DNA of 32,732 bases from Verrucomicrobiota bacterium. GTDB lineage: Bacteria; Verrucomicrobiota; Verrucomicrobiia; Opitutales; Opitutaceae. The notes beneath the pieces are model-generated. The model did not search any database, was not told the DNA's origin, and was given only the letters and a program-made list of their open reading frames with translations. Made by a program: the position numbers and the translations under genes. The stretch covers positions 1 through 32,732 of the forward strand of contig JAQGON010000102.1 of assembly GCA_028293565.1 (NCBI GenBank). The letters are read 5' to 3'. Positions within the stretch are counted from its first letter, which is position 1, and every line of letters begins with the position of its first letter. Positions 11,715 through 32,732 of the stretch are shown in pieces.

Positions 11715-11767
11715 CAAACAGACCACCCGCCCGCGGAGCCGCAATCAAACTCTCCGGATCCATGAGT

Positions 11768-11796
11768 GGAACGCGTGGGCGCGGCCAACGCGTTCC
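11768..11796. repeat. 9-bp perfect inverted repeat in the miaA / lipid-kinase divergent region
   Basis: GGAACGCGT (11768-11776) and ACGCGTTCC (11788-11796) flank an 11-base GC-rich loop. It lies about 54 bases upstream of miaA and 80 bases upstream of the kinase start, so it could be an operator or a leader hairpin. The core GGAACGC also appears in hairpins at 448-480 and 16166-16187. Confidence 0.4.
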
Positions 11797-11875
11797 GCCC
11801 GCTCGTTCCCCGGCCGCCTCGGCCCGGGCGCAGGGGCGCGGGAAAAAGAGTTTGTTTCGGCGCCCGAGGTCCGCC

Positions 11876-12766
11876 GTGCTTCGACGGTTGAAGACGCGCT
11901 TCATCGTCAATCCCTTCTCGGGCCACGCCTCCCGCGCGCTGGCGCGGGTGCGCGCCCACGCGGCGGCGAGCGGCGCAGAGGTGCACCTCACCGCCCGTCC
12001 GCGGCACGCCACCGAACTCGCGCTCATGGCGCTGGCCGATGACTGCGAGCTCGTCGTTGCGGTCGGTGGCGACGGCACGCTCAACGAAGTCGCCACGGCT
12101 CTCGTCGGCACGGATGCCGTCTTCGGACTGGTCCCGTGCGGTTCCGGCGACGGCCTCGGGCGCCACTTGGGAATCCACGGCACGATTTCGCACGCGTTGG
12201 AGATTCTGCGCTCCGGCCATTCGCGCCGGATCGATACCGGGCTGGCCGACGGCCACCCCTTTTTCACCGCGGCGGGCGTCGGTTTTGAAGCCGAGGTCTC
12301 GGCGCGCTTCAACCGTCTCTCCAGCCGCGGCTTTCTTCGCTATCTGACGACCAGCGCGGCGCTGTGGCGGACGTTCGAGCCGGAGGACTACCAGATTGAA
12401 CAGGACGGCCGGGTGACGACCGTGCGGGCATTCACCGTGGCCATCGCGAACGCCGACCAGTACGGCAACAACGCGCGGATCGCGCCGGGCGGGCGGATCG
12501 ACGACGGCCTGCTCAACCTGACGGCCGTGCCGCCGGTGTCGTTCGTCAACGGCCTGCCCCTGCTGCTGCGCCTGTTCAACGGCACGATCGGCGGCGCCCA
12601 CGGAGTCTGCCGGCTGACCGGCCCTCGTTTTGCCGTCACGCGCTCAAATGCCGGACTGATCCACACCGATGGCGAGGTTCACGCGGCCGGCCCGCGCGTC
12701 GAGTTCGTCATCCGTCCGCTGAGCCTCAGGGTGATGGCACCCGACGGCCGTCACAAGTCATCGTAG
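11876..12766 (+). CDS. Diacylglycerol/lipid kinase family protein (DagK/YegS-LCB5 type), copy 1
   Basis: 296 aa from GTG 11876, chosen because GAGGT lies 5 bases upstream and the family N-terminus (RFIVNPFSG) follows at once; the frame is open to 11762, but that part is Arg/Pro-rich and unlike the family. Family motifs: NPFSG (12-16), nucleotide-binding VAVGGDGTLNEV (62-72), PCGSGDGLGRHLG (88-99), GVGFEAEVSARF, and the C-terminal NADQYGNNARIAPGG and GLIHTDGEVH. These kinases phosphorylate diacylglycerol or related lipids with ATP at the inner face of the membrane. The usual Asn in GSGNG is Asp here. It is a clear paralogue of the kinase at 20006-20998. Its 3' end overlaps the convergent GGDEF gene by 16 bases. 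Confidence 0.87.
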   Translation: MLRRLKTRFIVNPFSGHASRALARVRAHAAASGAEVHLTARPRHATELALMALADDCELVVAVGGDGTLNEVATALVGTDAVFGLVPCGSGDGLGRHLGIHGTISHALEILRSGHSRRIDTGLADGHPFFTAAGVGFEAEVSARFNRLSSRGFLRYLTTSAALWRTFEPEDYQIEQDGRVTTVRAFTVAIANADQYGNNARIAPGGRIDDGLLNLTAVPPVSFVNGLPLLLRLFNGTIGGAHGVCRLTGPRFAVTRSNAGLIHTDGEVHAAGPRVEFVIRPLSLRVMAPDGRHKSS

Positions 12767-19121: not shown

Positions 19122-20009
19122 TCAGCGACGGGTCACAGCAACCCGGGGCGTCGTCCGGCGCGCGGCCATCACAAGCGCCTGCGGGCTGAGCGCAGGCGAA
19201 GCGTCGGCTCCTCGTTCCGGCCCGCCGTCCTCGACGCCGGCGTCTTCCGGATCATACGGGAAATCGCGGAGGAAACTTCCGAACTCCACCAGCTCGAACC
19301 GGCCGTCCCAGTGTTCCACCAGGGCCGTCAACGACTCCACCCAGTCGCCGGAATTCAGGTAGTGCACCTCCCCCAGCATCTTGTCCGCAGGCGTGTGGAT
19401 GTGCCCGCACATCACGCCGGTGCAGCCGCGGTCGCGCGCCAGCTGCGCCAGCTGGACCTCGAACTTTGAAATGTGGCTCACCGCCGACTTCACCCGCGCC
19501 TTGATCGCCCGGCTCAACGACCAGTACTCCTGCCCGCGCCAGGCGCGCCAGGAATTGTACAGCCGGTTCAGCCGGCGCAGCGCCCGGTAACCCCAGTCGC
19601 CCAGATGCGCCAAAAACACGAAATTCCGCGTGATCGTGTCGAACACGTCGCCGTGGAGCACGAGATACCGGCCGCGCAGTCCTTCGTGCACGTGGTCCTC
19701 GACGATCCGCAGGTTTTCAAAGTCCAGCGGGAGAAACGAACTCATGATGTCGTCGTGATTCCCGCGCAGATAGATGATCTGCGTCCCCTGCTTCTCCATT
19801 TTCTTGAGGACAATCCTGACAAAGCGCGTCTCGTTCGTCGTCCAGCTGCCGCCGCGGCGCAGCTGCCAGGCGTCGATGATGTCCCCGTTCAGGATCAGGG
19901 TCTCGCAACGCACCGCCCGCAGGAAATGATTCACCTCGCGCACCTTCGCGTCGGGCGTGCCGAGGTGGACGTCCGAGATGATGACCGTGCGGACGCGCAG
20001 TTTTTTCAT
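19122..20009 (-). CDS. Calcineurin-like phosphoesterase, PlcP / LpxH-like
   Basis: 295 aa. All metallophosphoesterase motifs are present: SDVHLG (D13, H15), NGDIID (D43), RGNHDD (N84, H85), VLHGDVFD (H119) and CGHIHTP (H203, H205). The pattern YWSLSRAIKARVKSAV, SKFEVQL, and NSGDWVESLTALVEH with DGRFELVEF is that of proteins annotated UDP-2,3-diacylglucosamine diphosphatase, which includes the rhizobial and marine PlcP phospholipase C that splits phospholipids to diacylglycerol under phosphate stress. This is remembered family resemblance, not an alignment. Its start overlaps the stop of the diacylglycerol kinase gene (ATGA) and it is last in a four-gene operon with two glycosyltransferases, which favours a lipid role. 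Residues beyond about 245 form an acidic, then basic, tail. Confidence 0.8.
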   Translation of the reverse strand: MKKLRVRTVIISDVHLGTPDAKVREVNHFLRAVRCETLILNGDIIDAWQLRRGGSWTTNETRFVRIVLKKMEKQGTQIIYLRGNHDDIMSSFLPLDFENLRIVEDHVHEGLRGRYLVLHGDVFDTITRNFVFLAHLGDWGYRALRRLNRLYNSWRAWRGQEYWSLSRAIKARVKSAVSHISKFEVQLAQLARDRGCTGVMCGHIHTPADKMLGEVHYLNSGDWVESLTALVEHWDGRFELVEFGSFLRDFPYDPEDAGVEDGGPERGADASPALSPQALVMAARRTTPRVAVTRR

Positions 20010-20998
20010 GGCCGGGAAAATCGCAGCGCCTCGGCGCCGACGGGCGGAAGTCCGCGCAGTCCACCCACGTCCGCCGCCGCTTCCGCCAGATTCTCCGGCT
20101 CCCGCGCGGGTACGCGACAGCCCGACGGCACCGTGATGCGGAGGCTGCGCGGCCGCACGACCACCTCGATGCTGGCGGAGGTCTCGTGGGTTTCCCCGTC
20201 CGTGTGGATCAGTCCGGGCCCCGCGCGCTCGATGAGAAAGCGATCCCCGCGCATGCGCGTCACCCGGCGACTCCGGTCAATCGTCCCCAGAAACAGTCGC
20301 ACCGCGAGCGGCAACGCCGACAGGAGCCCGACCGAGTGCACGACGATCAGGTCAAACACGCCGTCGTCGACCGTCGCTCCCGGCGCAATGTAGGCCCGAT
20401 TGCCATATTGGTCGGAATTCGCCACCGCGATGAGCGACATTTCGAAACACTTCCGGCGGATCCCGTGAACGACGCACCGCTCCATCCGGTGTTTCATCAG
20501 CGCGCGCGATCCCGTGACCGCGTAAGCCAGGAGTCCGCGGCGCACCAGCCGGTTGAAGGAACGGCTGATCTCGGCGTCGAAGCCGAGCCCCATCACGTTG
20601 AAAAAGGGATGCCCGTTGGCCACGCCCGTGTCGATCGTCACGTCCCGGTGCCCCGGACCCGCGAGCAGCATCAGCGCGGCGCGCGGCGAGGTGGGGATGC
20701 CCAAATGAAGCGCCAGCCCGTTTCCCGAGCCGCACGGGACCAGGGCCAGCGCGGCCGCCGTCCCGGTGACCGCCTGCGCGACTTCGTTCATGGTGCCGTC
20801 GCCCCCGACCGCGACGATTCGCTCGCAGCCGCGGGAAATCGCCGCGCGCGCCAGCAGCGTGGCGTGGCCCGGCGCCTCGGTGGAGACCAGTTCCGCGTCC
20901 AGCTGGTGGGCGGCGATGAAGCTCCGGATCGCCGGGACCAGCCAGGGCCGGCGCCGGTTTTTTCCGGAACACGGGTTGAAGACAAAACAGGTTTTCAT
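20006..20998 (-). CDS. Diacylglycerol/lipid kinase family protein, copy 2
   Basis: 330 aa from ATG 20998, which overlaps the stop of the upstream glycosyltransferase (ATGA). Motifs: FVFNPCSGKNRR (5-16), VAVGGDGTMNEV (62-73, GGDGT at 65-69), VPCGSGNGLALHLG (87-100), GLGFDAEISRSFNRL, NSDQYGNRAYIAPGA and GLIHTDGETHE, all typical of the DagK/YegS family, which makes phosphatidic acid from diacylglycerol and ATP. Unlike copy 1 (11876-12766) it keeps the usual GSGNG. Within this operon it could return diacylglycerol to phospholipid synthesis, opposing the glycosyltransferases. The frame continues upstream of 20998 only as a shadow of the glycosyltransferase. Confidence 0.9.
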   Translation of the reverse strand: MKTCFVFNPCSGKNRRRPWLVPAIRSFIAAHQLDAELVSTEAPGHATLLARAAISRGCERIVAVGGDGTMNEVAQAVTGTAAALALVPCGSGNGLALHLGIPTSPRAALMLLAGPGHRDVTIDTGVANGHPFFNVMGLGFDAEISRSFNRLVRRGLLAYAVTGSRALMKHRMERCVVHGIRRKCFEMSLIAVANSDQYGNRAYIAPGATVDDGVFDLIVVHSVGLLSALPLAVRLFLGTIDRSRRVTRMRGDRFLIERAGPGLIHTDGETHETSASIEVVVRPRSLRITVPSGCRVPAREPENLAEAAADVGGLRGLPPVGAEALRFSRP

Positions 20999-22206
20999 CG
21001 GACCGCCGCGGGTTTGAGGGAAAGCGGCACCCGGTTCGCAGCCGGATCGAGCGCCCCCGCTCCGATCCCGGCTCCAACTCGAACGCGCTCGAGGACCTGT
21101 TCGACAATCGCCTCGGCGGCGTTCGGCCGCGCCAGCCGATCGAGCGCGCCGCGCCATTTGCTCCAGACGCGACCCTGGTCGGCAAACGCGCTCCGGCACG
21201 CCTCCAGCACGGCAGTGGGCGTTTCCGCCAGGGCTCCGACTCCATGCCGGCGGAGCAGCTCGTAATTGCCCTCCTCCTGCCCGGGAACGATTTGGTTCAC
21301 GATCATCGGACAGCGCGCCGCGATCGCCTCCTGGGTCGTCGCGCCGCCGGCCTTGCTGATCACGACGTGGTGCGTGAGCAGGAGCCGCGGGATCAGGTCG
21401 GTCCAGCCGAGGATCGAGGTCGGCCGCGTGCGGGAGGTCGCCAGCTTCTGCAGACGGCGGCGGAGCGCGACGTCCTTTCCGACCGCGCAGGTGATGTCCC
21501 AGCCGGATTCCTCGAGCAGCAGGCGGGCCGTGAGTTCCGCGCCGCGCGTGCCCGAGTTGATGATATAAAGCACCCGCGGCGCCCCGGGCGCCCGCGCCGG
21601 ATGCGGCGGCCGCGACAGCGGCGGAGGCGTGAGGTTCGGATTGTCGCGGAAGAAAGCCGGCGTCGGAAAACCGCACGCATGGAGCCGCGACGCCTCGACC
21701 CCGACGCTGCGCATGATCTCCGCGGACGCGTCGTTCGGCACGAACCACGCGTCGCACTGCGCCCGCCACCACAGCGAATTGATGCTGATCGAATCCGTCA
21801 CGATGTTGAAATGCGGCACCGGCGCGATCCGACCTTGGTGAGCCAAACGCTCCATCATGAAGGCATACACCGGATAGGTGCTGCACACCGCCACCGGACG
21901 CTCGCGCCGGATCACTTGCGCCAGGAGCTCCATTTCCCGCCACATGGACCACAGCGCGGACGGCAGGATCTCCGAACGGTCGACCCATTGATAGAAACGG
22001 CTCCACAGGTGCGGCGTGCGGTTGATCATCCCGATGTAGCCCTTCCGCAGCACCCGGTTCAGCCGCGGCGAGGCCATGGAAAAAATGTCCGCGGTCATCG
22101 CCGCGCCGGGGGAAATCACCTGGTTGAACGCCTCCTCCAGGTTTCGCGCGGCGGCGTTGTGCCCTTCGCCAAAGCCGGCGGTCAGGATCAGGATTCGGGA
22201 TTTCAT
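20995..22206 (-). CDS. MGDG-synthase-like glycosyltransferase (GT28 type)
   Basis: 403 aa from ATG 22206, overlapping the stop of the GT4 gene. The N-terminus ILILTAGFGEGHNAAARNL is the MGDG_synth-type start (a GxGH motif that binds the acceptor lipid side). The C-terminal half has VLYIINSGTRGAE and the nucleotide-sugar site VVISKAGGATTQEAIA, then CPMIVNQIVPGQEEGN, a motif characteristic of diacylglycerol galactosyl/glucosyltransferases and their MurG relatives. It should transfer a hexose from a UDP-sugar to diacylglycerol at the membrane surface, giving a phosphate-free glycolipid. The sugar is not predictable. Second gene of the operon 23360 to 19122. Confidence 0.85.
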   Translation of the reverse strand: MKSRILILTAGFGEGHNAAARNLEEAFNQVISPGAAMTADIFSMASPRLNRVLRKGYIGMINRTPHLWSRFYQWVDRSEILPSALWSMWREMELLAQVIRRERPVAVCSTYPVYAFMMERLAHQGRIAPVPHFNIVTDSISINSLWWRAQCDAWFVPNDASAEIMRSVGVEASRLHACGFPTPAFFRDNPNLTPPPLSRPPHPARAPGAPRVLYIINSGTRGAELTARLLLEESGWDITCAVGKDVALRRRLQKLATSRTRPTSILGWTDLIPRLLLTHHVVISKAGGATTQEAIAARCPMIVNQIVPGQEEGNYELLRRHGVGALAETPTAVLEACRSAFADQGRVWSKWRGALDRLARPNAAEAIVEQVLERVRVGAGIGAGALDPAANRVPLSLKPAAVR

Positions 22207-23360
22207 GCGAAGGCGGGTTTCGGGGTGGAGGTGATCTGGGTGAGCTCGGAGAGGTCCTGCTCGAAGCGGACCACCACCCGCTCCCACGACTGCGTTTCGA
22301 CAGTGGCGCGCGCAGCCGCCCCGAGGCGGGCGCGAAGAACAGGCTCGGTTGCAAGGCGCACGGCGGCGGCGGTCAGGCCGTCCGCATCGTGGCTTGGTAC
22401 GGACAATCCGTTTTCTCCCGAGCGCACGAACTGCCGCGCGGCCGCGTAGTCGAAGCCTGCCACGGCGAGGCCGCTCGCCATCGCCTCGGTCAGCACATTG
22501 CCGAACGTCTCGGTCAAGCTGGCGTGGACATAGATGTCCGCCGACGCGTAATAGCGGCCGATCTCCGGCCGCAAAAAGAATCCCGCAAAAACGCAGCCGG
22601 GATTTTCCGCCATCAGCCGCGCCTTCAGCGGGCCGTCGCCCGCGAGCACAAACCGCGTCCGCGGATTCGCCGTCCGCATCGCCGCATAGATCCGGCACAG
22701 GAGACCGTAATTTTTCTCGGGCGCCATGCGTCCGACGTGCAGCACCACGGGATCGCCGGGCCCGGCCCCCCAGCTCCGGCGCAACTCCGCGCTGCGCAGC
22801 CCGGGATCGAAATGCCGCAGGTCAACCCCGCGCGAAAGCACCGCCAGGTCGCGAAAGCCCTGGCGCTCGAGTTCGCCGGCGAGTTCGCGCGTGGGCACGA
22901 AGGTCCGCCGCGTCCGGTTGTGGACGCGCCGCAGCCACGCCAGGACGAGAGGGTGAAGCAGGCCGAAGCCATAGTCTCCGGCGTAGGCGTGGAAATTCGT
23001 GTGGAAGCTCGAGGTCACGGGAATGCCCAGCGAACGCGCCGCCGTGATTGCCGACGCGCCGAGCGGGCCCTCGGTCACGACGTGCACCAGATCCGGGCGG
23101 TTTTCCGTCCATCGCTTCCGCAGCGTTCCCCTGGCCGGAAAACCCAGCCGGAGGAGCGGATAACCCGGGATCGGCCATCCCGGCAGAAAAACTTCCGCGA
23201 ACCCGCCGCGGATGGAATCGCGCGGCAGATCGTCGCGCCTTGGCCGATAGACCGTGACGTCATGCCCGCGGCGGGCCAGCTCGCCGGCGATCACGCCGAA
23301 CGTCATCGCCACGCCGTTCACCTCGGGAGGAAAGGTTTCGGTGACGATGGCCAGTTTCAC
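22203..23360 (-). CDS. GT4 (GT-B fold) glycosyltransferase, probably lipid or mannosyl acting
   Basis: 385 aa from GTG 23360; no Shine-Dalgarno is visible. The start KLAIVTETFPPEVNGVAMTF is that of family 4 enzymes of the MgtA/PimB/SQD2 kind. It is followed by HVVTEGPLG, SSFHTNFHAY, LSRGVDLRHFDP, VVLHVGRMAPEKN (start of the donor-binding domain), LAGDGPLK and the GT4 signature SLTETFGNVLTEAMASGLAV, where the two Glu contact the nucleotide sugar. It acts in the cytosol or at the membrane. As first gene of an operon with an MGDG-synthase-like enzyme, a lipid kinase and a PlcP-like esterase, a glycolipid product is likely (inference). A general alpha-mannosyltransferase is the main alternative. 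Confidence 0.85.
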   Translation of the reverse strand: MKLAIVTETFPPEVNGVAMTFGVIAGELARRGHDVTVYRPRRDDLPRDSIRGGFAEVFLPGWPIPGYPLLRLGFPARGTLRKRWTENRPDLVHVVTEGPLGASAITAARSLGIPVTSSFHTNFHAYAGDYGFGLLHPLVLAWLRRVHNRTRRTFVPTRELAGELERQGFRDLAVLSRGVDLRHFDPGLRSAELRRSWGAGPGDPVVLHVGRMAPEKNYGLLCRIYAAMRTANPRTRFVLAGDGPLKARLMAENPGCVFAGFFLRPEIGRYYASADIYVHASLTETFGNVLTEAMASGLAVAGFDYAAARQFVRSGENGLSVPSHDADGLTAAAVRLATEPVLRARLGAAARATVETQSWERVVVRFEQDLSELTQITSTPKPAFA

Positions 23361-23670
23361 GTCAGGCGGCGGATTGGCGGGAAGGGTTCGAAGTTATTCA
23401 CAAAATCTACCCGGCACGCGTGCCGCTTGCGTGGCGTCCCGGTGACAATCCGGCAAACTCATGCGCGCCGAAGCCTGGGCAATGCCCTGGATTTCGAGCT
23501 CATGACTCAGCCCGCCCCAAAGAGTTGATCGAGCGCATGCGGCGCCCGCCGCGACGCGGTGGGGCCCGGCCCCTTCAGGCGTCGGGGGTAAAATGTAACA
23601 TTCCGAACATTGCGACCCGGCCGGTTCTCTCGTAACACTACCGCGCCGTCAGTCCACCCTCTCCCCCGCC
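23361..23670. promoter_or_regulatory. Divergent intergenic region upstream of the glycolipid operon
   Basis: 310 bases between the GTG of the GT4 gene and the ATG at 23671. It carries a perfect 14-bp palindrome CGGCACGCGTGCCG at 23412-23425, about 52 bases before the operon start. Close to the plus-strand gene lies a 9-base direct repeat, AACATTCCG AACATTGCG. TTGCGA and TAACAC 17 bases apart could be a poor promoter for the plus-strand gene. No two-unit Pho box of the E. coli type is visible on the operon side. Confidence 0.4.
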
Positions 23671-24075: not shown

Positions 24076-25005
24076 TCAGTAGATTTCCGGCACGATCATT
24101 TCCGGCCGCACGGGCTCCCGGCGATAATCCGGATGGTGCACCCGCGGCGGCAGCTCGATCGGCAGGTGGCCGACCTCGGCGTAGCGCACCTGGGAGAGCA
24201 GATGATGGATGCAGTTCAGCCGGCCTTTTTTCTTGTCGGCGCCCTGCACCACCCACCATGGCGCCTCGGGGATGTGCGTGCGGTCGAACATCACCTCCTT
24301 GGCCTTCGTGTAGAGCTCCCAGCGCTTGCGCGACTCCAGGTCCATCGGGCTGAGTTTCCACTGCTTGAGCGGGTCGTTGATCCGGCAGCGAAACCGGAAT
24401 TCCTGCTCCTCGTCGGGAATGGAGAACCAATATTTGATCACCTGGATTCCGGAGCGCACGAGCATCTTCTCGAACTCCGGCACCGAGCGGAAAAATTCCT
24501 CGTACTCCGCATCGGTGCAGAACCCCATCACGCGCTCCACGCCCGCCCGGTTGTACCAGCTGCGGTCGAACAGCACCATCTCGCCTGCGGCGGGGAGATG
24601 GGCGATGTACCGCTGGAAATACCACTGGGTTTTTTCCCGGCTCGACGGCGCCGGCAGCGCCGCCACCCGGGCCACGCGCGGATTCAGGCGCTGCGTGATG
24701 CGCTTGATCGCCCCGCCCTTCCCGGCGGCGTCGCGGCCTTCGAAGACAATCACCAGCCGGTGGCCGCTGCTCACGATCCAGTCGTGCATCTTCACCAGCT
24801 CCCCCTGCAGCCGGAAAAGCTCCCGGAAGTAATGGTTGCGCGCCGCGTGCGACGCATCCTCCTCCACCGGGCGCGCCGGCTGATGCGGATCGACCCGCTC
24901 CCAATCCTCGCGCTCCATCTCGAGCTCCTCGTCGTAGTCGTCGATCAGCTCGCGGTGCACGCGGCGGATGAGCTGATTCTCGTGATTCGGGGATTCGTGG
25001 GCCAT
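24076..25005 (-). CDS. ppk2: Polyphosphate kinase 2 family protein (one-domain)
   Basis: 309 aa from ATG 25005; the frame reaches 25113, but the added part is Arg/Gly-rich and unlike the family. PPK2 enzymes transfer phosphate between polyphosphate and nucleoside di- or monophosphates. Walker A IVFEGRDAAGKGGAIKR (G90-G97), the lid/Walker B motif VLFDRSWYNRAGVERVMGF (D147, R148), then IKYWFSIPDEEQEFRFRCR, LSPMDLESRKRWE and APWWVVQGADKKKGRLN are all present. Length and the NRAGVE/RRIDDP-like (CRINDPLKQWKLSP) motifs fit class I, which mainly makes NTP from NDP, or the reverse. It is divergent from a two-domain PPK2 at 25170, with a shared 164-base control region. Confidence 0.93.
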   Translation of the reverse strand: MAHESPNHENQLIRRVHRELIDDYDEELEMEREDWERVDPHQPARPVEEDASHAARNHYFRELFRLQGELVKMHDWIVSSGHRLVIVFEGRDAAGKGGAIKRITQRLNPRVARVAALPAPSSREKTQWYFQRYIAHLPAAGEMVLFDRSWYNRAGVERVMGFCTDAEYEEFFRSVPEFEKMLVRSGIQVIKYWFSIPDEEQEFRFRCRINDPLKQWKLSPMDLESRKRWELYTKAKEVMFDRTHIPEAPWWVVQGADKKKGRLNCIHHLLSQVRYAEVGHLPIELPPRVHHPDYRREPVRPEMIVPEIY

Positions 25006-25082
25006 GAGGGACAAACCATAGAAGTCCGCCCGCCCGCCGCCGCAAGCCGCCACCGGGCGCCCGCCCGTCCGGAGCCGGAATT

Positions 25083-25104
25083 TAACCTGACCGTAACCTT
25101 GGCG
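25083..25104. promoter_or_regulatory. 11-bp direct repeat, candidate Pho box
   Basis: TAACCTGACCG (25083-25093) is followed at once by TAACCTTGGCG (25094-25104); 8 of 11 positions agree. Pho boxes are direct repeats with an 11-base period, and this one lies between two divergent polyphosphate kinase genes, 66 bases before the plus-strand start. The sequence itself differs from the E. coli consensus, so the assignment rests on spacing and context. Confidence 0.4.
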
Positions 25105-25169
25105 GAAAATCATCCTCCCGGCCCAGCTCCGGCTCGACTTCCCTTCCGCTCCCGGCAGCCTCGCGGCGC

Positions 25170-26645
25170 ATGGCGAAAGCGAGGCACGGATTGACGAAGC
25201 GCGCCTACCAGGCCCGCGCCCGGGTCCTGCGCGAGCAGCTGGTGCAGCTGCAGCTTACGCTCAAGCGCGCGCCCTTCAAGGTGCTGCTGATCCTCGCCGG
25301 GCCCGAGGGCGCCGGTCGCGGGAACCTGCTCAACACGCTCGCCGAGTGGCTCGATCCGCGCGGCGTCGAGACGTTTTCCTATCATCCGCCGACCGACAGC
25401 GAACGGGCCCATCCGCACCTCTGGCGATTCTGGCGGAGCCTGCCGGGCATCGGCCGCATCGGACTCTACGCCGGCTCCTGGTACACCGAGACGCTGCGCG
25501 AGGAGGCACGGAGCAAGCGCGCCCTGAGCCACATCACCGCCGACGCCGGTCGGATCTGCCGTTTTGAAAAACTGCTGGCCGACGGCGGCACCCTGATTGT
25601 GAAGGTCTGGCTCGACCTTTCCAAGGAGTCGCAGGGGCGCCGTCTCCGCAGCCTTCGCGCCGACCCGGCGACGGCATGGCGGGTGACCGACGAGGACTGG
25701 CACCACCATCGCATCTACGACCGCCTCGCCGCCACCGCCGCCCATATTCGCCGGAAGACGAACCAGCCCGGGGCGCGCTGGCACCTCATCGACGCGCAGG
25801 ACGAGCGCGCCCGCGACCTCTCCGTCGGGCAGCTCCTGCTCGCGGAGGTCCGGCGGCAACAGGAACGCCTCAGGCGCCGCGCGCGCTCCCAGGCGCCGCA
25901 GCGCCTGAAATCGCTCCGCCCCTCGGGACTGCGCCGGCTGCGCGCGCTCCGGCTCGACCAGCATCTTTCCGAAAAGGACTACGACGTCCTGCGGGAAAAA
26001 TGGCTCGGCCGCCTCAACCAGGCGGTGCGCGCGGCCTTCGCCGCCCGCCGCGCGATCGTCTTTGCCTTCGAGGGCTGGGACGCGGCTGGCAAGGGCGGCG
26101 CGATCCGGCGGCTGACAAGCGCCGTCGACCCGCGCGATTACCGCGTGGTCCCCGTGGCCAAACCCACCGACGAGGAGAAGCACGCGCATTACCTCTGGCG
26201 CTTCTGGCGCGACATCCCGGCGAACGGCCGGATGGTCGTCTTCGACCGCTCCTGGTACGGGCGCGTGCTCGTCGAGCGCATCGAGGGATTCTGCCGCGAC
26301 GATGAATGGAAGCGCGCCTTCGGGGAGATCGACGATTTCGAGCGCGAGCTGACGCAGCACGGGACCATCGTCCTGAAATACTGGCTGCACATTTCGCATG
26401 CCGAGCAGCTGGCGCGTTTCCGCGAGCGCGAAGCCGCGGCCCACAAGCGTCACAAGATGAACGCGGAGGACTGGCGCAACCGCCGGAAACGCACCGCGTA
26501 CGAAATTGCCGTCGGCGACATGCTGGCGCTCACCGACCGCGACCACGCCCCGTGGCATGTCATTCCGGCGGACAACAAACGGTTCGCGCGCCTCGAGGTG
26601 CTCCGGTCCGCGAGCCGGCAGATCGAAGCGGCGCTGGAGTCCTGA
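25170..26645 (+). CDS. pap: Two-domain PPK2, polyphosphate:AMP phosphotransferase-like
   Basis: 491 aa: two tandem PPK2 domains, the arrangement of class II Pap enzymes that phosphorylate AMP to ADP with polyphosphate. The C-terminal domain is intact: Walker A AFEGWDAAGKGGAIRR (G302-G310), VVFDRSWYGRVLVERIEGF (D359, R360), LKYWLHISHAEQLARF and MNAEDWRNR. The N-terminal domain is degenerate: the P-loop reads LAGPEGAGRGNLL (44-54), with Arg for the catalytic Lys, and DRSWY is replaced by AGSWY (101-105), so it is probably structural, as known for Pap. An Arg-rich linker joins them. The ydcF-like gene follows 3 bases after the stop, so they are co-transcribed. Confidence 0.92.
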   Translation: MAKARHGLTKRAYQARARVLREQLVQLQLTLKRAPFKVLLILAGPEGAGRGNLLNTLAEWLDPRGVETFSYHPPTDSERAHPHLWRFWRSLPGIGRIGLYAGSWYTETLREEARSKRALSHITADAGRICRFEKLLADGGTLIVKVWLDLSKESQGRRLRSLRADPATAWRVTDEDWHHHRIYDRLAATAAHIRRKTNQPGARWHLIDAQDERARDLSVGQLLLAEVRRQQERLRRRARSQAPQRLKSLRPSGLRRLRALRLDQHLSEKDYDVLREKWLGRLNQAVRAAFAARRAIVFAFEGWDAAGKGGAIRRLTSAVDPRDYRVVPVAKPTDEEKHAHYLWRFWRDIPANGRMVVFDRSWYGRVLVERIEGFCRDDEWKRAFGEIDDFERELTQHGTIVLKYWLHISHAEQLARFREREAAAHKRHKMNAEDWRNRRKRTAYEIAVGDMLALTDRDHAPWHVIPADNKRFARLEVLRSASRQIEAALES

Positions 26646-27509: not shown

Positions 27510-28148
27510 ATGCTCTGGCTCAAGAAACTATTCGGGAAAGAGGACAAGTTCTTCGACCTGCTCGAGGCGGGGGCCGGCGAGGCCAAGACGAGCGTCAACC
27601 TGCTCGCCAGCTACCTCCAGACCCTCAGCGCCGGCGGGCCGCCGGCGAACCTTGACGACTTTGTGCAGTCGCGGCGGAAGGAAAAGCGCATCCGGCACGA
27701 GATGACCGAGCAGCTGAGCCGCACATTCGTGACGCCGCTCGAGCGCGAGGACATCGAGGCGCTGTCGTTCGCACTCTACCGGATCCCGAAGGCGGTCGAA
27801 AAAATCGTCGAGCGCCTCTCGATTTACCCGGGACGCGTCCCGCACGCGGCCTTCCAGCGGCAGGCGGAGCTGCTCAACCTCGCGGCGGACGCCGTGACCT
27901 TCATGGTCAAGGAGCTCCGCGGCGGCACGCACATGGAAAAGATCCGCGAGGCCAACGACCGCCTGCAGTACGCCGAGGGCGAGGCCGACAAGGTGATGCT
28001 GACGCTGCTCAAGGACCTTTACCATGGACCGTACGACGCCAAGGAGCTGGTGATTCTCCAGGAAATTTACGAGATGGTGGAGCAGGCTGTGGACCGCTGC
28101 CGCAACGCCGGCAACATCGTCGTCCAAATCGTGCTCAAGCATTCCTGA
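27510..28148 (+). CDS. DUF47 (PhoU-like) phosphate transport regulator
   Basis: 212 aa, all-helical, typical DUF47 length. Motifs: MLWLKKLFGKEDKFFDLLEAGA at the N-terminus (in parts LFGKEDKFFDLL, SVNLLASYL), KRIRHEMTEQLSRTFVTPLEREDIEALSFAL (core acidic/basic DUF47 motif, here split as KRIRHEMTEQL and TFVTPLEREDIEAL), EGEADKVMLTLLKDLY and a PhoU-like C-terminus EIYEMVEQAVDRCRNAGNIV. Proteins of this type bind metal through an E/DxxxD pattern, sit next to PiT transporters and are thought to control them. The pit gene starts 21 bases downstream, which supports this. Confidence 0.92.
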   Translation: MLWLKKLFGKEDKFFDLLEAGAGEAKTSVNLLASYLQTLSAGGPPANLDDFVQSRRKEKRIRHEMTEQLSRTFVTPLEREDIEALSFALYRIPKAVEKIVERLSIYPGRVPHAAFQRQAELLNLAADAVTFMVKELRGGTHMEKIREANDRLQYAEGEADKVMLTLLKDLYHGPYDAKELVILQEIYEMVEQAVDRCRNAGNIVVQIVLKHS

Positions 28149-28169: not shown

Positions 28170-29237
28170 ATGACGCTGTTCCTGTTCGTTCTGCTGGCTG
28201 CGCTCGTTTTCGAGTATATCAACGGGTTTCACGACACCGCCAACGCGATTGCGACGGTCGTCTCGACCAAGGTGCTCACTCCCCGCTGGGCGATCGCCTG
28301 GGCGGCATTTTTCAACCTGCTCGGCGCGCTGATGGGCACGGCGGTCGCGACCACGATCGGCAAGGGGCTCGTCGACACGCAATTCGTCACGATGACGACG
28401 GTGATGGGCGCGCTGCTCAGCGCGATCATCTGGGGCTTGTTCACCTGGTGGCTCGGACTGCCGTCGAGCTCGAGCCATTCGCTCGTCGGCGGACTTTGCG
28501 GCGCCGCGCTCGGGACCTCGAACGGCGACTGGCACGTGCTGCACTGGGCGATCAAGGACAGCCATGGTGCGGCCACCGGGCTCTGGCCGAAGGTCGTGCT
28601 GCCGATGATCGCCTCGCCGCTCCTCGGTTTCTTCGGCGGTGCGTTCCTGATGGGCCTCCTCACGGTGATCCTGCACCGGCTCACGCCGCGGCTGGTCAAC
28701 CTGATCTTCGGCAAGGCCCAGCTCCTCAGCGCCGGTTTCATGGGTTTCAGCCACGGTTCGAACGACGCGCAGAAAACGATGGGCATCATCGCGCTCGCCC
28801 TGTTCACCGGCACCACCCAAGGCGCGTTCGCCCACCTGCCGGAATGGGCCGCGTTCCTGCGGACGCCGGAATTCACGGTCCCGTACTGGGTCATCATCAC
28901 CTGCGCGCTCACCATGGCGGCCGGCACCGCCGCCGGCGGCTGGCGGATCATCCGCACGATGGGACACAAGATGGTGAAGCTCCAGCCGGTCCACGGCTTC
29001 GCGGCGGAGACCACCGCGGCCCTGATCATCCACGGCGCCTCCACGCTCGGCGTTCCCGTGTCCACGACCCACGTCATCGCGACGTCGATCATGGGCGTCG
29101 GCGCGACGAAGCGTTTCAGCGCCGTCAAATGGGGCCTCGTCGGCCGCATCGTGTGGGCGTGGGTCCTCACCCTCCCCGTCACCGGCCTGTTCGGTTATCT
29201 GATCGTGAACCTCCTCCGCGCATTCGGGGTGGGATAA
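28170..29237 (+). CDS. pit: PiT family low-affinity inorganic phosphate transporter
   Basis: 355 aa integral membrane protein, about 8-10 helices. Both PiT signature repeats are present: FEYINGFHDTANAIATVV (residues 14-31) near the N-terminus, and FMGFSHGSNDAQKTMGIIAL in the second half, the duplicated phosphate/metal-binding GxxDxxN-type motifs. SSSSHSLVGGL and VPVSTTHVIATSIMG are the matching paired segments. It carries metal-phosphate with H+ or Na+ across the inner membrane. Paired with DUF47 upstream and convergent with the high-affinity pst/pho genes. Confidence 0.95.
   Translation: MTLFLFVLLAALVFEYINGFHDTANAIATVVSTKVLTPRWAIAWAAFFNLLGALMGTAVATTIGKGLVDTQFVTMTTVMGALLSAIIWGLFTWWLGLPSSSSHSLVGGLCGAALGTSNGDWHVLHWAIKDSHGAATGLWPKVVLPMIASPLLGFFGGAFLMGLLTVILHRLTPRLVNLIFGKAQLLSAGFMGFSHGSNDAQKTMGIIALALFTGTTQGAFAHLPEWAAFLRTPEFTVPYWVIITCALTMAAGTAAGGWRIIRTMGHKMVKLQPVHGFAAETTAALIIHGASTLGVPVSTTHVIATSIMGVGATKRFSAVKWGLVGRIVWAWVLTLPVTGLFGYLIVNLLRAFGVG

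Positions 29238-29421: not shown

Positions 29422-29438
<17 letters not shown>
29328..29438. repeat. 14-bp tandem repeat, about eight units, running into the phoR 3' end
   Basis: The unit CGAACTGCGAGCTC is exact at 29341-29354, 29355-29368 and 29369-29382. CGAACTGCGAATTC follows at 29383-29396 and 29397-29410, then diverged units at 29411-29424 and 29425-29438, and a partial unit at 29328-29340. An inverse-sense run (CGGAATTCGGAATTCGG, about 29253-29269) lies just upstream. The phoR stop codon (29422-29424) is inside the sixth full unit. Confidence 0.9.
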
Positions 29439-30609
<1,171 letters not shown>

Positions 30610-30634
30610 GCTCCCAAAAAAACGGCGCGCCGCC

Positions 30635-31318
30635 TCAGGAGCCAGCCTTGAAACGATAGCCCACGCCCCGGATCGTTTCGAGATAGTCCGCCGCCGGTCC
30701 GATCTTTTCGCGCAGCCGCCGCATGTGCGTGTCGACGGTGCGCGTGTCGATCGCGGTCTCATAGCCCCAGACATCCTGCAGCAGGCGCTCGCGGCTCTGC
30801 ACGCGACCGCGCCGCTTCGCGAGGGCCACCAGCAGGTTGAACTCCGTGGCCGTGAGCGTGACCGCCTTCCCCTCCACCTCCGCGACATGCCGCGGCACGT
30901 CGACCATCAGCGTGCCGATGCGGATCTGTTCCGTCGCGTCATCGGCCTTGGTGCGCTTCAGCAGCTTCCGGATTCGCAGGACCAGCTCGCGCGGGCTGTA
31001 GGGTTTCGTGACGTAGTCGTCCGCGCCCAGCTCGAGCCCGACCACGCGGTCCATTTCGGCCGCCTTCGCCGTCAGCATCAGCACGGGGATGCCGGCCGTC
31101 GCGGGGTCGCGCCGCATGAACTTGCAGACCTCCAGGCCGTCGAGCTCCGGCAGCATCAGGTCGAGCACCACGAGGTCCGGGCGCTCCGCCCGCACCGCCG
31201 CGAGGCCCTTCAACCCATCGGCGGCGAAGATCGGTGCGAACCCGGCCTCCCGCAGCTTGAAGCCCAGCACCTCGAGGGCGTCGGGCTCGTCGTCAACGAT
31301 CAGGATTTTGGGCTTCAT
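30635..31318 (-). CDS. phoB: Phosphate regulon response regulator PhoB (OmpR family)
   Basis: 227 aa, standard OmpR/PhoB length. The receiver domain (1-120) has D9/D10, phospho-acceptor D53 (VVLDLMLPELDG), T83 and K105 (DDYVTKPYSPREL). The C-terminal winged helix (130-225) has VTLTATEFNLLVALAKRRG, SRERLLQDVWGY, the recognition-helix region TRTVDTHMRRLREKIG and IRGVGYRFK. When phosphorylated by PhoR it should bind Pho boxes and activate uptake and phosphate-sparing genes. Its first 26 bases overlap the 3' end of phoU, indicating translational coupling. Confidence 0.95.
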   Translation of the reverse strand: MKPKILIVDDEPDALEVLGFKLREAGFAPIFAADGLKGLAAVRAERPDLVVLDLMLPELDGLEVCKFMRRDPATAGIPVLMLTAKAAEMDRVVGLELGADDYVTKPYSPRELVLRIRKLLKRTKADDATEQIRIGTLMVDVPRHVAEVEGKAVTLTATEFNLLVALAKRRGRVQSRERLLQDVWGYETAIDTRTVDTHMRRLREKIGPAADYLETIRGVGYRFKAGS

Positions 31319-31976
31319 TGGGATCCTTCAGACCGGCGTGGCGGATGTCCCGCGCTTCATAAAGATAAACCACCTCCTCGGCGACGTTGGTCGCATGGTC
31401 CGCGATGCGCTCGAGGCACTTCGAGATGACCATCAGCGCGAGGCACCGCGAAATCGTCGTCGGGCGCTCCACCATGTAGCTCGACAGCTCGCGGTGCAGC
31501 TGCCGGTTCAGGTCGTCCACTTCCTTGTCCCGCGGGATCACCGTCCGCGCCAGGTCGGGCTTGCGCTCGACAAACGCCGTGAGCGCATCCCGGAGCATTT
31601 CCAGCGCCATCGCGGCCATCCGCGGAAGATCGATGTAGGGCTTGAGCTGCGGCTCCTGGTTGAGGTCATGCGACCGGCGCGCGATCGAGCACGCCTCGTC
31701 CCCCACCCGCTCGAGGTTCTGCGAGATTTTCATCGCCACGGTGATGAAGCGCAGCTCCGTCGCGAGCGGCGCCTTCGTCAGCAGATGCAGCGCCAGGTCG
31801 TCCACCTCGATCTCGAACTGGTCGATGATGTTGTCGTCCTCCTCCACCTGCCGGGCCAGCGCGTCGTCGCGGTCGACGAGCGACCGCATCGCGCGCGCCA
31901 CCGCCGACTCGGAGTGGCTCGCCATCGCGAGGACCGTGTCCTTCAGCTTGTTCATCTCTTCGCTGTAGTGGGTCAT
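31293..31976 (-). CDS. phoU: Phosphate transport system regulator PhoU
   Basis: 227 aa, two three-helix PhoU repeats. Metal/partner motifs: IIDQFEIEVDDLALHLL in repeat 1 with ISQNLERVGDEACSIARR, and DKEVDDLNRQLHREL in repeat 2 with ISKCLERIADHATNVAEEVVYL (the E/DxxxD-containing NLERxGD and CLERIADHA signatures). PhoU links PstB activity to PhoR and keeps the system off when phosphate is plentiful. It starts 17 bases after the pstB stop and overlaps phoB by 26 bases, so the order pstB-phoU-phoB-phoR appears to be one transcript. Confidence 0.96.
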   Translation of the reverse strand: MTHYSEEMNKLKDTVLAMASHSESAVARAMRSLVDRDDALARQVEEDDNIIDQFEIEVDDLALHLLTKAPLATELRFITVAMKISQNLERVGDEACSIARRSHDLNQEPQLKPYIDLPRMAAMALEMLRDALTAFVERKPDLARTVIPRDKEVDDLNRQLHRELSSYMVERPTTISRCLALMVISKCLERIADHATNVAEEVVYLYEARDIRHAGLKDPNEAQNPDR

Positions 31977-31993: not shown

Positions 31994-32732
31994 TCAGCCG
32001 AACCGGCCCGAAACGTACGCTTCGGTCTGGGGGTTGGCGGGATTGGTGAAGATGTTCCGGGTCTCGGCGTACTCGATCAGCCGGCCGAGGTAAAAGAACG
32101 CCGTCTTGTCCGAACAGCGCGCGGCCTGCTGCATGTTGTGGGTGACGATCACGATCGTGTACCTCGTCCGCAATTCCTGGATCAGCTCCTCGACCTTGGA
32201 CGTCGCCACGGGATCCAGCGCGGAGCAGGGCTCGTCCATCAGGATGACTTCCGGCTCGACCGCGATCGCGCGCGCGATGCAGAGGCGCTGCTGCTGTCCG
32301 CCGGAGAGCCCGAGGCCGCTGGTCTGGAGGCGGTCCTTCACCTCGTCCCAGAGCGCGGCGCCGCGCAGGGACCTCTCGACCACCTCGTCGAGGCGCGCGC
32401 GATTCGCGATGCCCTGTAGGCGCAGCCCGTAGGTGATGTTTTCGTAGATCGATTTGGGGAACGGATTCGATTTCTGGAAGACCATGCCGACGCGCTTGCG
32501 CAGCTCGATCACGTCGACGTCGTGCCGGTAGATGTCGACGCCGCGAATCTTGATCGAACCGCGCGCGATCCGCGTGCCGTCGATCAGGTCATTCATGCGA
32601 TTGAGACAGCGGAGCAGCGTGGACTTGCCGCAACCCGACGGGCCGATGAAGGCGGTGACTTTCTTGTTGTCGATTTTGAGGTTGATATCGGCGAGCGCCT
32701 GCGTGGCGCCATAGAAAAAATCCACCTGCTCG
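31994..32732 (-). CDS. pstB: Phosphate ABC transporter ATP-binding protein PstB, start beyond window
   Basis: 245 codons are visible; the frame stays open to the window edge (EQVDFFYGA), so the N-terminus lies outside. Walker [16 protein letters not shown]-loop [17 protein letters not shown] (typical PstB), signature [16 protein letters not shown], Walker [17 protein letters not shown] and H-loop [11 protein letters not shown] are all intact. The C-terminal [32 protein letters not shown] (split here at RNIFTNP) is the usual PstB ending. It powers high-affinity phosphate import with PstA/PstC, expected just outside the window. Confidence 0.97.

Follow-up and report, generated by a model that had tools for sequence, protein, structure and literature searches.

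Relation to described systems

In the papers cited here, phosphate-driven lipid remodeling is best characterized in Proteobacteria. PA3219, PA3218, and PA0842 of Pseudomonas aeruginosa make MGDG and glucuronosyl-diacylglycerol (GADG) at low phosphate, with PA0842 being Agt2, the enzyme that makes the glucuronosyl lipid (PMC8528852). SMc00171 is a phospholipase C in the Pho regulon (PMC3596328), and both PlcP in Verrucomicrobia and plcP-glycosyltransferase operons have already been published (PMC4796936). Here, we analyzed a 32,732-nucleotide stretch from a Verrucomicrobiota bacterium of the family Opitutaceae (assembly GCA_028293565.1, contig JAQGON010000102.1, positions 1 to 32,732; hereafter the window), which carries a four-gene operon for a GT4 glycosyltransferase, a GT28 glycosyltransferase, a lipid kinase, and a metallophosphatase. 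Based on features read directly from the sequence, namely gene order, PlcP family membership, GT4 kinship, an upstream motif, linkage, co-occurrence, and fusion, this is very probably a PhoB-controlled membrane-lipid remodeling operon, which would extend phosphate-driven lipid remodeling to a Verrucomicrobiota family.

The locus shares with the P. aeruginosa PlcP-Agt1 plus Agt2 system (PMC8528852) the same PlcP family, two proposed diacylglycerol glycosyltransferases, and Pho boxes. On the other hand, Agt2 is encoded apart in P. aeruginosa and the second transferase there is a GT4 (Agt1), whereas in Opitutaceae a single operon holds all the genes, with a GT28 as second transferase and a lipid kinase inside it. 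The two systems also resemble each other in that the window GT4 has its nearest kin in a Pseudomonas enzyme taken here for Agt2. Adjacent PlcP and GT4 genes are found as well in the plcP-agt operons of SAR11, Erythrobacter, and methanotrophs (PMC4796936, PMC9239053), but plcP comes first in those operons with agt downstream, whereas the GT4 gene comes first in Opitutaceae and two more genes lie between. On the phosphate islands of marine HIMB59 (PMC10734472), polyphosphate kinase, pst, and phoRB genes are accompanied by a glycosyltransferase, a diacylglycerol kinase, and an "LpxH"; the comparison with these islands covers gene content, and in the available part of that paper the authors read LpxH as lipid A synthesis and name no GT28. 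Finally, two of 39 Bacteroidota loci (L111 and L119) hold PlcP, a glycosyltransferase, and a YegS-type kinase in one tandem, but their glycosyltransferase is of a third kind (PF13528-like by eye, with PF13528 shown for a Parabacteroides neighbor) and no GT4 is present. The open-licence literature, which was searched without supplements and covers few subscription journals, yielded no paper that describes the four-gene form, GT4-PlcP fusions, or lipid remodeling in Opitutaceae. Within that scope, the suggestion of an earlier note on this DNA that the operon may be an undescribed variant survives, while PlcP in Verrucomicrobia itself had been reported before.

Operon organization and conservation

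The four genes run head to tail on the minus strand from 23360 to 19122, and each of the three junctions shares an ATGA, a 4-bp overlap every time. The first gene (22203..23360, GTG start) encodes an Agt2-like GT4 glycosyltransferase (Glyco_transf_4, 109.1 bits) proposed to transfer a sugar, predicted to be glucuronate, onto diacylglycerol. It is followed by a GT28, MGDG-synthase-like glycosyltransferase (20995..22206; MGDG_synth PF06925, 66.9 bits), proposed as a second diacylglycerol (or glycolipid) glycosyltransferase; a YegS/BmrU-type lipid kinase (20006..20998; DAGK_cat 90.6 bits, YegS_C 72.4 bits), proposed to convert diacylglycerol to phosphatidate; and a metallophosphatase (19122..20009; Metallophos, 49.0 bits), which identity to PlcP loci, alignment, and a tree place in the PlcP family of putative intracellular phospholipases C. 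All Pfam matches of the four proteins exceed the gathering scores, and these assignments and coordinates bear out the run of four overlapping genes that the earlier note had described. The identical genes in identical order occur in 16 of the 29 family relatives with a fetched PlcP locus, and 37 of the 48 junctions in these 16 overlap by 4 bp (start codons chosen by script). Since the same order recurs in so many relatives with so many overlaps, we do not attribute the layout to chance.

Across 57 genomes, PlcP and a GT4 of the window type were each found in 41, both in 40, and neither in 15 (E limits of 1e-10 for PlcP and 1e-70 for GT4), so that the two are jointly present or jointly absent in 55. 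One exception, G003, has an operon that meets a contig end ahead of PlcP; in the other, G054, PlcP is followed directly by GT28 and no GT4 of the window type was found at the threshold used. The 29 family loci (L031-L059, not counting the broken contig L070) comprise 16 with GT4-GT28-kinase-PlcP, one more (L047) that starts at a contig end before GT28, three each with GT4-GT28-PlcP and GT4-kinase-PlcP, one with kinase-PlcP, one with GT4-PlcP-GT28, and four with PlcP alone. Among named loci, of which we scanned the best 80 of 589, so that the spread of forms is not exhaustive, the four-gene form appears in seven, all titled Opitutae, Opitutaceae, or Opitutus and some perhaps from the same genomes. 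Within the flanks covered, it was not found in the remaining named loci or in the ten order-level loci outside the family (L060-L069). Based on how modules are spread across the family and the outside loci, GT4-PlcP is best read as the core, with GT28 and the kinase as optional additions, and the four-gene operon as an elaboration of the known PlcP-Agt pathway that is conserved in the family.

In five of the same 80 named loci, from other Verrucomicrobiota (L094, L095, L098, L099, and L104), a single open frame of about 650-690 codons encodes GT4 followed by PlcP. These loci belong to Rubritalea marina, Verrucomicrobiaceae E54, and three metagenome-assembled genomes, and the domains of the Rubritalea fusion were assigned by Pfam. 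Such a fusion is a candidate natural bifunctional enzyme that makes the coupling of both steps directly testable.

The phosphatase

Sequence comparison assigns the operon phosphatase to PlcP and not to LpxH. Aligned over about 80% of its length, it shares 42.4% identity with the PlcP locus of S. meliloti and 46.5% with that of P. aeruginosa. The S. meliloti reference, located about 3 kb from an acyl-homoserine lactone synthase and a LuxR regulator, is presumably SMc00171, and the P. aeruginosa reference, from a plasmid record with the order PlcP-GT4-CyaB, is taken here for PA3219-PA3218. The two reference phosphatases are 47% identical to each other, in agreement with the 46% printed for PA3219 and S. 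meliloti PlcP (PMC8528852). A quick tree of 122 proteins, built without 15 of the 126 PlcP-type locus sequences, which were near-copies or fragments, separates 112 PlcP-type proteins from ten LpxH or LpxH-like ones by a branch with an SH-aLRT support of 99, and the window phosphatase falls on the PlcP side among loci titled Opitutaceae and Geminisphaera. The ten LpxH-side rows are the record-named Escherichia coli LpxH, three proteins above the LpxH model cut-off, two at 188 bits, and four Bacteroidota proteins at 52-94 bits.

The LpxH model gives the window phosphatase 26.6 bits, far from its cut-off of 190.35. LpxI, an alternative enzyme for the LpxH step of lipid A synthesis, is encoded in the genome that holds the window and in 53 of the 57 genomes overall, and it is kept in 15 of 16 relatives without a PlcP match; because its own genome has LpxI, the window organism needs no LpxH. 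When 11 PlcP genomes were scanned with the LpxH model, nine had a second, separate LpxH-type gene (three above the cut-off, two just below it at 188 bits, and four in Bacteroidota at 52-94 bits), while no such gene was found in the other two, both Verrucomicrobiota. The metallophosphatase motifs D-x-H, GD, GNHD, HGD, and GHIH are present as invariant alignment columns, with GHIH in 126/126 PlcP-type sequences and GNHD in 125/126 (the fragment L070 has no match). We also considered GNHD versus GNRD as a diagnostic for PlcP and LpxH, but it fails, as GNHD also occurs in four Bacteroidota LpxH-like proteins. Against solved structures, phmmer returned no match for the window phosphatase, while the PlcP family profile retrieved nine LpxH sequences and two of the nuclease MPE at 0.009. 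Many proteins annotated as UDP-2,3-diacylglucosamine diphosphatase are PlcP, and this annotation should be treated with caution.

Glycosyltransferases and lipid kinase

The GT4 that lies beside plcP in P. aeruginosa retrieves the window GT4 as its best match in the window's own genome (89 bits versus 46 for the next). In the opposite direction, the best match of the window GT4 in P. pseudonitroreducens is a different GT4 (49% identity), with the GT4 beside plcP second (36%), and its sole match in P. protegens, where no GT4 was seen beside plcP, is 45% identical. Both best matches have a CysZ-like gene on one side and DegV-like or other genes on the opposite one, and we take both for Agt2, as gene order around PA0842 is similar. 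Identity to these two is therefore 45-49%, compared to 34-41% for the GT4s beside plcP in five Proteobacteria. A GT4 tree, from which one outgroup fragment was dropped and in which two other outgroup rows are partial, unites the window GT4 with the two presumed Agt2 rows in a 44-row clade (support 96), and the five Proteobacteria GT4s beside plcP (Agt1-type rows) fall outside it. The window GT4 thus appears nearest to a Pseudomonas enzyme whose presumed identity as Agt2 comes from gene order. UDP-glucose dehydrogenase, the source of UDP-glucuronate, is encoded twice in the window's genome. Since both Agt2 kinship and these two dehydrogenases point that way, our best guess for the GT4 product is glucuronosyl-diacylglycerol, although a monoglucosyl product is possible.

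The GT28 protein scores 143.8 bits against NCBIfam PRK13609 (diglucosyl diacylglycerol synthase), below the cut-off of 500. Among solved structures, it matches 9wde, a processive diacylglycerol beta-glucosyltransferase, and 4wyi, the chloroplast MGDG synthase 1. Because G054 has PlcP and GT28 together, with no GT4 of the window type at the threshold used, GT28 probably can start on diacylglycerol. The operon kinase contains GGDGTMNE, carries both domains of its class (DAGK_cat and YegS_C), and has DgkB, BmrU, and YegS as solved relatives; its TIGR00147 score of 112.7 bits is below the cut-off of 118.65. As GT4-kinase pairs occur elsewhere and the Bacteroidota tandems also include a kinase, lipid kinases seem to have joined the PlcP pathway more than once. 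In another organism, P. putida BIRD-1, PlcP, DagK, OlsA, and OlsB are treated together in PMC5082522, and in the available part of that paper DagK is not listed among the proteins missing in the phoBR mutant.

Outside the operon, at 11762-12766 on the plus strand, lies another gene for a YegS-type lipid kinase; its product shares 47% identity with the operon kinase, and no Pho box site was found near it. L235, L236, L237, and L241 hold a GT4 gene paired with a lipid kinase gene away from PlcP, with no Pho box immediately upstream; these pairs are perhaps a constitutive glycolipid module.

Pho-box-like motif and pst linkage

To describe the upstream motif, we fitted a two-block model, which has equal half-sites and keeps the period fixed, to 22 pst promoters (15 upstream of the gene before pstS and seven directly before pstS), with no GT4 sequences included. 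One training promoter, L223, lies before an oxidoreductase gene and scores 0.3 bits, and was kept in the set. The fit favors period 11, with a log-likelihood of 118.6 versus 56 to 74 at periods 9, 10, 12, and 13, and the half-site CGTCACA. At this period, 21 of 24 family GT4 upstreams, window included, reach at least 11 bits, whereas at periods 8, 9, 10, 12, 13, and 14 only 2, 1, 0, 0, 4, and 1 of 24 do so. The family mean is 13.7 versus 2.83 +/- 0.67 in 200 shuffled sets, and a de novo fit on GT4 upstreams alone returns TCGTCAC, again at period 11 (140 versus 47 to 68 at other periods). Over all GT4 upstreams, 35/50 reach 11 bits versus about a tenth of 287 control upstreams (Mann-Whitney p 5e-17, a value not to be taken literally, given that the genomes are related and that other pho genes and shared divergent promoters are among the controls). 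The E. coli Pho-box consensus, on the other hand, detected nothing on the GT4 upstreams (all p 0.1 or more), and sites were recovered only with the motif trained on pst promoters from the order itself.

In the window, the site TGTCACCGGGACGCCACG (23430..23447, minus strand; 12.3 bits by position weight matrix) begins 87 bp before the GT4 GTG start. Two half-sites at period 11 thus precede the operon's first gene, as in a Pho regulon member by the motif derived here, with PhoB binding predicted. Pho sites also precede the lone PlcP genes of L056, L057, and L058 (none was found upstream of that of L055), the PlcP-GT28 pair of L066, the detached GT4-GT28 pair of G016, and the second GT4 genes of G015 and G030. 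The family gains a testable Pho box.

A search for pstS in 38 genomes returned 23 above the cut-off, 20 of them with PlcP. In 11 of these 20, a single contig holds pstS and PlcP at a distance of 2 to 15 kb; among these 11 genomes, ten belong to the window's family and eight to its genus. The distance is 31 kb in G043, and pstS lies about 7 kb from GT4 at a contig end in G010 and on another contig in the window's own genome. In G037, from another family, pstS, GT4, and PlcP are successive on one strand.

Proposed mechanism and alternatives

We propose that at low phosphate PhoB would bind the Pho box upstream of GT4, with the four genes transcribed jointly. PlcP would then cleave phospholipids, releasing diacylglycerol and a phospho-alcohol from which phosphate would be recovered, and the Agt2-like GT4 would add a sugar to the diacylglycerol. 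GT28 would make a second glycolipid, either a neutral hexosyl-diacylglycerol or one with a longer sugar chain, while the lipid kinase would return surplus diacylglycerol to phosphatidate and so set the share available for glycolipid. All enzyme activities in this scheme, the identity of the sugar, the regulation in vivo, and the substrate and role of the kinase are predictions. Taken together, the placement of PlcP apart from LpxH, the Pho box, pst linkage, GT4-PlcP co-occurrence, and the fusions support the phosphate-sparing glycolipid operon that the earlier note had put forward. A more specific version, which we regard as unlikely in its entirety, is that Opitutaceae have a closed, PhoB-switched diacylglycerol unit in which PlcP feeds two competing, unrelated transferases, one making an acidic and the other a neutral glycolipid, and leftover diacylglycerol is turned back by a co-translated kinase into phosphatidate, which may also activate GT28; in other Verrucomicrobiota, the GT4-PlcP fusion would hand diacylglycerol from site to site. 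Plant MGD1 is activated by phosphatidate.

Several observations weigh against PhoB-controlled remodeling. The window site, at 12.3 bits, is moderate; 7.7% of the 287 control upstreams equal it, and each of 20 shuffled windows contains between 0 and 2 sites of this kind. Because so many controls match its score, the case for the Pho box rests on the family (21/24). Outside the family the site is less regular, with at least 11 bits in four of eight order-level GT4 upstreams and in 10/18 from named contigs (starts approximate), and four of the five fused loci stay below 11 bits. UDP-glucose dehydrogenase showed no Pho box of 12 bits in 22 loci, which counts against a co-regulated supply of UDP-glucuronate and also serves as a negative control. 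Upstream motif scans found no Pho box at the kinase paralogues. In G019, G023, G024, and G029, GT4-kinase pairs lie away from PlcP with no Pho box just before them, and because such pairs exist without PlcP or a Pho box, the kinase may serve ordinary glycolipid synthesis. GT4 and PlcP are non-adjacent in six of the 40 genomes with both (G019, G021, G023, G024, G029, and G039), pstS is not near the operon in G012, G015, G016, G021, G024, and G039, and the relatives are not independent, with G001-G011 belonging to one genus.

If the phosphatase were instead the genome's LpxH for lipid A, the operon would be an envelope or lipopolysaccharide cluster. Such proteins are publicly annotated as UDP-2,3-diacylglucosamine diphosphatase, LpxH models match the window protein weakly, and GNHD is common to the PlcP group and the four Bacteroidota LpxH-like proteins. 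We nonetheless consider this highly improbable given the tree split with support 99, the 26.6 bits against 190.35, LpxI in the window's genome and in 15/16 relatives lacking a PlcP match, and the co-occurrence and fusion of the phosphatase with GT4. The earlier note had named grouping of the esterase with the genome's only LpxH as an outcome that would overturn its reading, and the split, the low score, and LpxI all point the other way. It is also improbable, though less so, that the operon makes ordinary membrane glycolipids constitutively, with PlcP as a turnover enzyme and no response to phosphate stress. GT28 relatives such as UgtP make housekeeping glycolipids, and four relatives have GT4-kinase pairs without PlcP or a Pho box, but Pho boxes precede the operon, the split pair of G016, and lone PlcP genes, and the pst linkage likewise favors phosphate control. 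A further variant keeps the remodeling core and places GT4 and GT28 in series, so that GT28 would add further sugars to the GT4 product, giving a di- or oligoglycosyl lipid, with the kinase acting on another lipid. UgtP-type GT28s are processive, and 9wde is named as such. A plcP-neighbor transferase that makes di- and tri-glycosyl lipids is cited in PMC4796936. Set against this, G054 pairs PlcP with GT28 where no GT4 of the window family was found at the threshold used, and we see the series arrangement as possible, though not as the favored form of the remodeling operon.

Neighboring genes and other observations

The window takes in the entire contig of 32,732 bases, and beyond the operon lies a phosphate-gene neighborhood. 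A PPK2 polyphosphate kinase (24076..25113, minus strand; TIGR03707, 365.9 bits, cut-off 301.8) is followed by a protein with two PPK2 domains at 25170..26645 on the plus strand (TIGR03708, 578.5 bits, cut-off 547.65). The earlier note had listed two polyphosphate kinases, PiT, and pst/pho genes here; the neighborhood was found, but the second "polyphosphate kinase" is a polyphosphate:AMP phosphotransferase. By family matches, the plus strand further encodes a PhoU-like DUF47 protein (27510-28148) and a PiT phosphate transporter (28170-29237), and a DUF218 gene also belongs to the neighborhood. On the minus strand are a PhoR-like kinase (29422-30888), a PhoB-like regulator (30635-31318, frame as listed) for which PhoB is the best family at 238 bits, below the cut-off of 296, and, at the contig end, PhoU (31293-31976) and PstB (31994-32725).

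Two relatives, neither with PlcP, carry many members of the PstS-type binding protein family: G020 (L208) has 46 matches in a scored subset of 88 candidates, and G007 has 13, an unusual expansion. In L209-L222, pstS is preceded by a gene of about 380-480 codons that carries Pho boxes and may encode a phosphate porin, and in L219 a CLC channel gene lies before that gene.

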